Source of the DNA: an uncultured Bacilli bacterium
GTDB lineage: Bacteria; Bacillota_I; Bacilli_A; RF39; UBA660
DNA length: 56,396 nt
Assembly: GCA_947628535.1 (NCBI GenBank)
Contig: CANRAF010000006.1
Location: 1 to 56,396, forward strand
Direction of reading: 5' to 3'
The notes beneath the pieces are model-generated. The model made no database searches, was not told the DNA's origin, and saw only the letters and a program-made list of their open reading frames with translations. This document shows, one piece after another, positions 29,042 to 54,446 of this stretch (positions are counted from its first letter, which is position 1; every line of letters begins with the position of its first letter). Made by a program: the position numbers and the translations under genes.

Positions 29042-29254
29042 CTATTTGTTGTTTGAGTAACCACTTAATTGTGACATTCCTCTTTCAACTAAACGTTTTG
29101 TAATTTCTCCACCAACTGAACCATTTCTTCTTGAAGTTTCATCTGGTCCTAAATTAACACCAAATTCTCTAGCTATTTCATATTTCATACTATCGATAGC
29201 TTGTTTAGCTCCAGGAACAACTAGTTTCTTACTATTATTACTGTTGTTATTCAT
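29042..29254 (-). CDS. Small acid-soluble spore protein, alpha/beta type
   Basis: This 70-residue SASP coats spore DNA and shields it from UV and desiccation. Conserved blocks are the GPR-protease region ([13 protein letters not shown], with the EIA cleavage context) and the DNA-binding [15 protein letters not shown]. An Asn/Ser-rich head and tail flank them. AGGAGGTG lies 6-7 bases before the ATG and a sigma-G-type promoter 25 bases upstream. It is a firm marker of true endospore formation. Confidence 0.97.
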
Positions 29255-44136: not shown

Positions 44137-44163
44137 AAAAAAACAAGACTACATAAGTCTTGT
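44137..44163 (-). terminator. Terminator of spoIIAA-sigF
   Basis: On the minus strand ACAAGACT, a 5-base loop and AGTCTTGT are followed by TTTTTTT. It overlaps the sigF stop, separating sigF from spoVA transcription. Confidence 0.85.
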
Positions 44164-44799
44164 TCTAAGTCTTGTAAGAATTTGTTTTTCTTCTCTAGAT
44201 ACTTTAACCTGATTAACACCTAAACTTTTAGACACTTCACTTTGAGTTAAGCCTTCACCATACCTTTTATTTATTAAATCCTTTTCATAATCACTTAAAC
44301 TTTCAAGTGCAATTTTTAAATCAAGAAGTTCTTCACGATAACTTTTCTCAGTATATCCAATACTATCATACATTTTCTGCTCTTCTTCATTTTCACTATC
44401 CAAACTTGCTACCAAACTACTAGCAATTTTAGCATCTTCAATATTTTTAACATCCATTTCTAAAAACAAAGCAATATCATCATCTGATGGAACATATCCA
44501 AGTTTTTGAGTCAAATAATCTTTTGCTCTTTCTATAGATGTATTTAATTTAATAAGATCCTTGCTTACTTTTAATACATTTGATTTTCTAATATATTCTA
44601 AAACCTTACCTTTTACATAGAAATATGCAAATGAAGAAAACTTAGTATTTTTATCAGATTTATAGTTATCATAAGCATCCATAAGTCCTATCATTCCAAC
44701 TTGATATAAATCATCTTTATCAAAATAATAAGTATATTTATTAATAATTGAATAAACTATATTTTCATTTTCTAACAAAACCTCTTCTCTATCTTTCAT
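44149..44799 (-). CDS. sigF: RNA polymerase sporulation sigma factor SigF
   Basis: This 216-residue sigma-70-family factor is the forespore-specific first sigma. Region 2.1-2.4: NENIVYSIINKYTYYF, DDLYQVGMIGLMDAYDNY, FSSFAYFYVKGKVLEYIRK. Region 3: LGYVPSDDDIALFLEM. Region 4: YEKDLINKRYGEGLTQSEVSKSLGVNQVKVSREEKQIL, with the helix-turn-helix near the end. The LGVNQVKVSR helix closely follows SigF/SigG. It is about 40 residues shorter than Bacillus SigF (255), mainly at the N-terminus before region 2. It starts in an ATGA overlap with spoIIAA and has no good ribosome site of its own. No spoIIAB lies between, so the usual anti-sigma control is not encoded here. Confidence 0.85.
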   Translation of the reverse strand: MKDREEVLLENENIVYSIINKYTYYFDKDDLYQVGMIGLMDAYDNYKSDKNTKFSSFAYFYVKGKVLEYIRKSNVLKVSKDLIKLNTSIERAKDYLTQKLGYVPSDDDIALFLEMDVKNIEDAKIASSLVASLDSENEEEQKMYDSIGYTEKSYREELLDLKIALESLSDYEKDLINKRYGEGLTQSEVSKSLGVNQVKVSREEKQILTRLRTRLM

Positions 44800-45131
44800 A
44801 TATTAACTATCTCATAAGCTGTTATTTCTTCATTTACTTGATATAAATGTTCTGTTAAAAAATGATTTTCTGAAAATAGTTTATCTATACCACATATTAT
44901 TAATTTTCCCCTATTATTAACTACTTCTTTATAACTACTTTTAATAGCCTCCAGGCCATACCTATCGATAAAACTTAATTTTTTTAAGTTTAGTAAAACA
45001 TATCTTATCCCATTATTTTTGATAACCATATCTAAGTCTTTTTTTAATAGATTATAAGTATCTCCATTAAGAATTCCTTTAAGTCTTACAATAAGTATTC
45101 CTTGTTTAAATTCCATGTCTATGTCTAACAT
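44796..45131 (-). CDS. spoIIAA: Anti-sigma F factor antagonist SpoIIAA, lacking the phospho-serine
   Basis: This 111-residue STAS protein begins MLDIDMEFKQGILIVRLKG and contains VLLNLKKLSFIDRYGLEAI. In Bacillus the same stretch is LSFMDSSGLG, with Ser58 the site phosphorylated by SpoIIAB. Here position 58 is Tyr and 57 is Arg, so the normal phospho-switch cannot work. The ATG at 45131 (AAGGAG 8 bases upstream) gives the family-like length of 111; an upstream in-frame start adds 11 poorly conserved residues. A possible sigma-H-like promoter is at 45187-45212. Next gene is sigF, overlapping by 4 bases; spoIIAB, normally between, is absent. Confidence 0.85.
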   Translation of the reverse strand: MLDIDMEFKQGILIVRLKGILNGDTYNLLKKDLDMVIKNNGIRYVLLNLKKLSFIDRYGLEAIKSSYKEVVNNRGKLIICGIDKLFSENHFLTEHLYQVNEEITAYEIVNI

Positions 45132-45186
45132 ATTATCTGCTCCTTCTTTTAAATTACTATACATTTTGTATAAGTATTAAAAAATA

Positions 45187-53308: not shown

Positions 53309-53497
53309 CTAATCTTCAACTTTACTCTTATCTAATTTGTAACTAGCACATATTGTTTCTTTCTTTTCTGTTGCTAAACCACTTTGATTTTTAATTTCTA
53401 TTTCTCTTAAATCGCAATGATTATCTTCACTATTACAATACTTACATAAATGTACATCACATTTAATATTTTGTTTATCTTTTTTCAATTTTATCAC
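53309..53497 (-). CDS. DUF1540 family cysteine-rich protein
   Basis: This 62-residue protein has the DUF1540 spacing of metal-binding Cys: IKCDVHLCKYCNSEDNHCDL and a late ETICASY. Six cysteines are visible. Members are small, probably zinc-binding, and common in spore formers; function unknown. GGGTGATAAAATTG (TTG start) or a nearby ATG could be used; the ATG read has the better spacing. It follows the NifS-like gene by 23 bases. Confidence 0.85.
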   Translation of the reverse strand: MIKLKKDKQNIKCDVHLCKYCNSEDNHCDLREIEIKNQSGLATEKKETICASYKLDKSKVED

Positions 53498-53520: not shown

Positions 53521-54093
53521 TCATTTTTTATACTTTAGTTTTACAAGTTTAGAAAAACTTACTATTAATGGAGTTGGTGCTGTTCCACTTCTATACTTAG
53601 TAGTGCTCTTACCACCATGAATTAAATTTTCAATACATATATTTTTTCTTTTTATTAATACCCCAAATCCTGGTATTTCATCTTCAATAGTAATATAATC
53701 AAAATTATTTAAATTATCATACTTTTTATCTAAATCTAAGTCTATATGATTACACTTATTTAATATTTTTGTAGATATAAAAACGTTTTCTGGAAACGAA
53801 TCTATTGTTTTACTGTATACTACTTCTCTATTCATTTCTTTGCACATATCTCTAAATTCTTCGTTATCAGTTACAATTTTATTTTTTACATTATTTATAA
53901 CCATAGTAAAACTTTCTGCATTACCACTTGTATAAATAACTTCATAATCGATAAGCCCAAGAACTTTTAATATTTGTTTTGAAGCAGCATCTTCAAGCTT
54001 TTTTGTATCTAATCCTAATTTATGAAGAGAATTACTATTACCTGGATAATCTATATTTACATTTTTGTAAGAATTTAAAATTTCTTCTTTCAT
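53521..54093 (-). CDS. Shrunken, non-catalytic cysteine-desulfurase (NifS/IscS)-like protein
   Basis: This 190-residue protein is clearly related to class V cysteine desulfurases, which are ~380-400 residues. Matching pieces are NSNSLHKLGLDTKKLEDAA (family NPSSxHxxG...), VIYTSGNAESFTMVI (family FTSGGTESNN) and IENLIHGGKSTTKYRSGTAP (family LIHGGGQExGLRSGT). Missing are the N-terminal YLDNAATT strand, the PLP-stacking His, the SGHK with the PLP-binding Lys (here IEDEIPGFG), and the C-terminal domain with the catalytic Cys. So it cannot act as a desulfurase by known chemistry. The frame is intact, with GGAG upstream, so it is not a pseudogene by frame. It overlaps the gene before it by 4 bases. 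Confidence 0.75.
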   Translation of the reverse strand: MKEEILNSYKNVNIDYPGNSNSLHKLGLDTKKLEDAASKQILKVLGLIDYEVIYTSGNAESFTMVINNVKNKIVTDNEEFRDMCKEMNREVVYSKTIDSFPENVFISTKILNKCNHIDLDLDKKYDNLNNFDYITIEDEIPGFGVLIKRKNICIENLIHGGKSTTKYRSGTAPTPLIVSFSKLVKLKYKK

Positions 54094-54446
54094 TTATTAC
54101 TCCTTGTTCTTACATTCCTATAAAACTTTGAATCGTTTTGTTTTAAATCATAAAAAACATTAATTGGTTTAATATATCCTTCATCATTTTCATATATTTT
54201 AGTAGGGAAAGTAAAATAAGTACCTGATTTTTTATCCTCTAAATGTGTGTCACTATCAATCACTTCATATAGTTTTTGATTCATGAAATCTAAAAACAAA
54301 TTATTATCCATAACTCCAAGAGCACATCCTGCCTCATAAACTATTGCATATCCTTCATCTTTAATAAGTTCACATAAATAACCTTTACAAACATCTTCCT
54401 TTTTAAAATCTCTATAATAAAATTCACTCTTACTTAAGTCAGTCAT
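54090..54446 (-). CDS. Hypothetical protein, operon with NifS-like and DUF1540
   Basis: This 118-residue acidic soluble protein is rich in Asp, Glu, Tyr and Lys, with three Cys (two in VCKGYLC near residue 20, one in EAGCALG near 41). It has no signal or membrane segment. I do not recognise a family. AGGAGGGTTATTA precedes the ATG. It leads a three-gene unit and its stop overlaps the NifS-like start in an ATGA, implying coupled expression. Confidence 0.65.
   Translation of the reverse strand: MTDLSKSEFYYRDFKKEDVCKGYLCELIKDEGYAIVYEAGCALGVMDNNLFLDFMNQKLYEVIDSDTHLEDKKSGTYFTFPTKIYENDEGYIKPINVFYDLKQNDSKFYRNVRTRSNK

Follow-up and report, generated by a model that had tools for sequence, protein, structure and literature searches.

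A half-size NifS homologue as the probable non-catalytic subunit of a heterodimeric cysteine desulfurase in an uncultured Bacilli lineage

The DNA analyzed here (the window; 56,396 nucleotides, contig C6 of genome G000, whose assembly amounts to 0.93 Mb in 20 contigs) carries a gene for a 190-residue, half-size homologue of the NifS/IscS cysteine desulfurases. From comparison with related proteins, we propose, at a probability of roughly 0.8, that its product is the non-catalytic subunit of a cysteine desulfurase that is an obligate heterodimer and has just one, composite active site, and that its partner is a 346-residue desulfurase homologue encoded elsewhere in the same genome (hereafter, the small and large proteins; Table 1). 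We further consider it reasonably likely that this heterodimer has one composite site and one acceptor-docking face and came about through the complementary degeneration of a tandem duplicate, with the sites divided between a catalytic and a loop-donating subunit.

Table 1. Coordinates of the small-subunit gene, its segments, and other features discussed in the text (positions in the window unless another contig is named)
Feature	Position	Strand	Remarks
Small-subunit gene, 190-residue NifS/IscS homologue	53521..54093	(-)	Stop codon included; ATG start; intact frame
AAGGAG ribosome-binding site of the small-subunit gene	54100..54105	(-)	Read from the sequence; 6 nt upstream of the ATG
Retained segment A, residues 18-27 (GNSNSLHKLG)	54013..54042	(-)	Missing or scrambled in the large protein
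Helix alpha-2, residues 25-45	53959..54021	(-)	Helix in the AF2 model; putative acceptor-docking site
Lost PLP-lysine motif, residues 137-139	53677..53685	(-)	EDE for SxH, Lys deleted
Retained segment B, residues 158-171 (IHGGKSTTKYRSGT)	53581..53622	(-)	Loop that reaches the partner's active site in desulfurase dimers
118-residue ORF upstream of the small-subunit gene	54090-54446	(-)	Overlaps the small-subunit gene by 4 nt (TGA/ATG)
Small Cys-rich DUF1540 protein	53309-53497	(-)	Directly downstream of the small-subunit gene
ThiI, 392 residues	29463-30641	(-)	Beside a trigger-factor-like gene
Alpha/beta-type small acid-soluble spore protein	29042-29254	(-)	
Sigma-70 family factor beside a STAS-domain protein	44149-45164	(-)	
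Large protein, 346-residue desulfurase homologue	G000:C8:4937-5977		Outside the window

Results

The small protein is homologous to the cysteine desulfurases, at a level far above chance, and its descent places it in the aminotransferase class V / NifS-IscS family. Specifically, it matched Pfam Aminotran_5 (PF00266) with 30.4 bits (E 2.6e-7; cut-off, the gathering score, 21.5) and the NCBIfam NifS model with an E of 1.4e-12, far below the equivalog cut-off, and it aligned to NifS/IscS chains of the PDB (E ~1e-7) with the GNSNSLH and IHGG...RSGT blocks in their original order, as an earlier, sequence-only reading of the window had described. That reading had also proposed a comparison of the predicted structure with NifS, and the AF2 model (pLDDT 82.5, pTM 0.83) found its closest PDB match in H. 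pylori NifS residues 15-259 (Z 17.8, 187 aligned residues, rmsd 2.6 Å). As modeled, the small protein is thus the large domain of NifS (fold-type I) minus the C-terminal domain.

The residues that a desulfurase needs for catalysis are gone from the small protein. The Lys that forms the Schiff base with PLP is deleted in the small proteins of all five genus members, where SxHK has become EDE or EDD, and Asn stands at its column in the sixth small protein, from genome G031 of another genus of the family. The PLP-stacking His (EHSS) is missing, with F, I, M, L, or S at reference position 98, as are the persulfide (catalytic) Cys and the substrate Arg, the whole C-terminal domain being absent. The residue-by-residue comparison thereby bears out what had been read from the letters alone, namely the change of SGHK to EDE and the loss of the stacking His and the C-terminal Cys domain. 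The earlier estimate that some 100 middle residues had been condensed was too high: the interior loss is ~54 residues, in addition to 11 at the N terminus and ~122 at the C terminus.

What the small protein keeps and the large one lacks lies mainly in two segments. In segment A, N19, N21, S22, H24, and G27 do not vary among the six small proteins or among 80 full-length relatives (100% conservation), and the large proteins have not kept them. In segment B, G160, G161, K162, S163, T165, R168, S169, G170, and T171 are likewise invariant among the six small proteins. The GGKSTTKYRSG loop of segment B is the sole part of the isolated small-protein model with pLDDT below 50 (residues 160-165 and 167-170), as might be expected if a partner orders the loop, which is suggestive rather than proof.

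One explanation for a protein of half the family-norm length that has lost its catalytic residues is that its gene is a decaying pseudogene or a recent deletion of a full-length desulfurase. Against this, the frame is intact in six genomes of two genera, with the retained loops invariant. The small form is uninterrupted in all five sampled genomes of the genus (some of the relatives' genomes are metagenome bins, and some come from goat omasum or from samples labeled Lapin), the other four being 59-65% identical to that of the window; the G031 form, of 231 residues, is 38% identical. Clade-wide conservation and dN/dS had been named beforehand as a check. For the small form, dN/dS is 0.10 in the closest pair, and most pairs within the genus give 0.2-0.3 (rough values, as dS is high); purifying selection acts on both the small and the large genes. 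No full-length desulfurase gene occupies the small-gene locus in any genus relative sampled, so neither of the observations that the sequence-only reading had said would overturn it, such a gene or a short form conserved in no relative, was made. Decay or recent deletion is therefore strongly disfavored and extremely improbable; as judged from these comparisons, the small gene is not simply decaying and is under selection.

The sequence-only reading had argued against decay from the intact frame, the ribosome-binding site, and the overlap with the neighboring gene; the first two hold, and the third falls away, as the overlapping upstream ORF matches nothing in Pfam or NCBIfam and none of 69 relatives has a homologue of it. 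The apparent coupling is thus specific to the window's genome, and we rejected a conserved partnership between the small protein and the product of this ORF. In the genus, the small-subunit gene always adjoins a DnaB_2-type gene and a gene for a small predicted protein. The DUF1540 gene also lies beside it in G001 and G003 and does not in G002 or G004, where the small-subunit gene is adjoined by ruvA-ruvB-like genes. A search for signs of phage or plasmid origin gave no match.

The candidate partner is one of five large proteins, found in G000, G001, G002, G004, and G031, each of 346 residues. All five retain the PLP Lys, the stacking His, the pyridine Asp, the persulfide Cys, and the substrate Arg, and in all five the RSGT segment and the N-terminal GNxNSLHxxG segment are deleted or scrambled. 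An eight-residue deletion at YRSGT (reference 229-236) marks the large proteins of G000 and G031 and can also be seen in the aligned sequences of the other three. The large protein of G031 has SSHK, EHSS, and the Cys domain and is missing the GNSNSLHKLG region and the STTxYRSGT segment. In that genome, the stop codon of the large gene abuts the in-frame start codon of the small gene (TAG|ATG); in the genus of the window, the pair is unlinked. There, an RNHCP-domain protein and a 406-residue protein with no Pfam match follow the large gene in all four of the genomes where it was found (G000:C8:5958-7507, L049).

The two proteins could also form a real heterodimer that is no longer a cysteine desulfurase, acting on another substrate or serving merely to bind PLP or as a docking module. 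In favor of this, each subunit has departed from the rest of the family, neither of them reaches an NCBIfam equivalog cut-off, and the large protein of G001 (L057:1501-2541) has Gly in place of the PLP-site Gln (reference 178) that is conserved elsewhere. Yet the Lys, His, Asp, Cys, and Arg noted above are kept throughout the large proteins, the best-matching curated models are NifS, DndA, and IscS, and a full-length NifS encoded in a thioredoxin operon of G000 also misses those equivalog cut-offs. We therefore regard a heterodimer with some other function as quite improbable and retain a desulfurase as the working interpretation.

The losses in the two proteins are complementary across the family's conserved positions. 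When 80 distinct full-length homologues were aligned with both sets (six small proteins, five large ones), 58 columns showed at least 98% conservation among the full-length sequences. Of these, 34 were kept by the large proteins only, 12 by the small only, 10 by both, and 2 by neither; for 90 columns at 95%, the corresponding counts were 54, 17, 12, and 7. If losses were independent, 8.7 columns (Fisher p 4e-5) and 16.3 columns (p 6e-6), respectively, would be expected in the "neither" class, with these p-values being indicative only, since neighboring columns are not independent. Most of the small-only columns group at two places, GNSNSLHKLG and GGKSxTxxRSGT. The catalytic set is among the large-only columns, which include His98, Gln178, Ser196, Lys199, Cys320, and Arg345.

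The two forms also occur together. Profile searches of 386 genomes of the family, from 150 genera, gave five matches at 592-672 bits with the large-protein profile (the rest at most 400) and six matches at 246-338 bits with the small-protein profile (the rest at most 158), leaving 380 genomes in which neither form was detected. Short matches in G022, G051, G060, and G069, two of which (G022 and G060) run into contig ends, were counted as neither form; none falls in the score range of the small-form profile. A sample of 395 genomes of the class yielded no further large-type proteins. G003 alone is unpaired, with a small form and no large gene seen. We do not count it as a counter-example, because the gene that elsewhere lies downstream of the large gene is truncated there, 5 bases short of where a 3,294-base contig stops, which places the contig end where the large gene would be expected; the latter thus probably lies in an assembly gap. 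In the tree, the five large proteins form one clade (100/99), and the six small proteins group together in 97% of bootstrap trees, a topology that favors a single origin before the two genera split, with the caveat that the small protein of G031 is a long branch whose exact placement is unsure.

These patterns bear on a further reading, in which the small protein is a regulator or decoy that forms reversible inhibitory or activating heterodimers with SufS (encoded separately at G000:C2), with the thioredoxin-operon NifS, or with the 346-residue protein. The small protein does retain the NifS large domain, which bears most of the IscS dimer interface (PMC2854127), and inactive paralogues that activate enzymes are known, such as the AdoMetDC prozyme (PMC5201418). 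Such a role leaves unexplained why the 346-residue protein has lost the very residues that the small protein keeps, and why the small and large forms co-occur so strictly. Further, no thioredoxin-operon NifS was found in G031 or G004, both of which have the small form, so that this NifS is not its necessary target. We consider a regulator or decoy unlikely. The sequence-only reading had leaned toward a regulator, scaffold, or decoy for a true desulfurase or for SufU/Nfu/ThiI; that the small protein acts with a true desulfurase probably stands, and the regulatory role is no longer the best reading, because a likely partner with complementary deletions has been found.

Two observations lie outside this argument. 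First, a separate full-length NifS belongs to an operon, conserved across many genera of the family, that also encodes a small CxxC protein with no Pfam match and a larger, secreted-looking CPHC protein (L047:6010-8614, G000:C2), possibly an undescribed sulfur or redox relay. Second, the spore-protein gene and the sigma-70/STAS genes of the window are possible sporulation genes in a reduced 0.93-Mb genome.

Discussion

In the heterodimer that we propose, the large subunit would have kept the catalytic residues and lost the loops normally lent between the subunits of NifS/IscS homodimers, and the small subunit would have kept the dimerizing large domain and the donated loops and lost its own active site and Cys domain. 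Deprived of these loops, two large subunits should be unable to form a functional site together; the small subunit, which has the loops and lacks the Lys, His, and Cys, could complete the large subunit's site, so that one site per dimer, and one PLP, is predicted. The two proteins would bind each other, and their shared site would be active. Both active sites sit at the dimer interface in this family, and the lending of residues is described in related enzymes: in human selenocysteine lyase, both active sites receive residues from each monomer (PMC3266270), and in SufS, the Gly-rich loop and the hairpin that follows it are part of the adjacent monomer's site (PMC10011822). These explicit statements concern SufS and selenocysteine lyase, and their transfer to NifS-type proteins rests on homology. 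The T. onnurineus enzyme is an obligate functional dimer in which Thr268 helps to bind the PLP phosphate (PMC5426080); we infer that this residue is the Thr of this loop segment. A fused-chain AlphaFold model of the G031 pair reached a pTM of 0.58 with the small half poorly resolved, the linker being one residue (the TAG read as Ser) and the alignment thin, since MAFFT had placed the small and full-length rows on the first half; the model lends no support to docking of the two proteins.

The arrangement may extend to sulfur delivery. The acceptor TusA binds IscS at helix alpha-2 of one subunit, and the second subunit supplies the Cys loop (PMC2854127). The small protein retains alpha-2, and the large protein is deleted at the start of this helix, so that by analogy the small subunit may also be the acceptor platform. 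A persulfide formed on the Cys of the large subunit would then pass to an acceptor docked on the small one. ThiI is a plausible client; it is present in all six genomes, and in G031, the pair of ThiI and the trigger-factor-like gene lies ~4 kb from the split desulfurase genes (L143:5744-8207). As to origin, a full-length desulfurase may have been duplicated in tandem, followed by complementary degeneration, with the gene pair still adjacent in the genus of G031 and dispersed in that of the window.

Compared with the type I homodimers NifS and IscS (PF00266; H. pylori NifS 5wt5, T. maritima NifS 1ecx, E. coli IscS 1p3w), fold and descent are the same, and the small and large proteins jointly hold nearly all of the family's highly conserved residues. 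Those enzymes have two equivalent sites, whereas here the residues are split over two unequal paralogues and one site per dimer is predicted. Judged by analogy, the nearest precedents for the heterodimer logic are two. First, the LCB1/LCB2 serine palmitoyltransferase is a PLP fold-type I heterodimer with the PLP Lys in one subunit only, and it is, as a working hypothesis, taken to have a single active site (PMC3794620). However, that enzyme is eukaryotic and membrane-bound, and LCB1 is near full length, whereas in the present pair, one protein is reduced to half size and the other has deleted the donated loops. Second, in metazoan mitochondrial SerRS2alpha/SLIMP, a homodimer became a heterodimer, the site being ablated in one paralogue and a part lost in the other, and the pair retains activity (PMC10570016); this is an unrelated aminoacyl-tRNA synthetase, though, and its catalytic subunit lost the tRNA-binding domain, not active-site loops. 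SufS-SufE and NFS1-ISD11-ACP, to which the term "heterodimeric cysteine desulfurase" refers in the literature, also combine a desulfurase with a partner that it requires or that stimulates it, but those partners are unrelated to it, and the desulfurase itself remains homodimeric, with both of its active sites (PMC12192291, PMC11021402, PMC6956336). We found no report in the open-access literature of a desulfurase split into two paralogous subunits.

Cysteine desulfurases have been described as homodimers with two equivalent sites, and a natural one-site version would allow single-site kinetics and one-way sulfur transfer to be measured directly. If the proposal holds, the pair would also illustrate cleanly how duplication and complementary degeneration can act within a composite active site, here in a small genome. 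Annotation pipelines would label one of these genes a truncated desulfurase and the other an odd one, although both likely encode subunits of a single enzyme.
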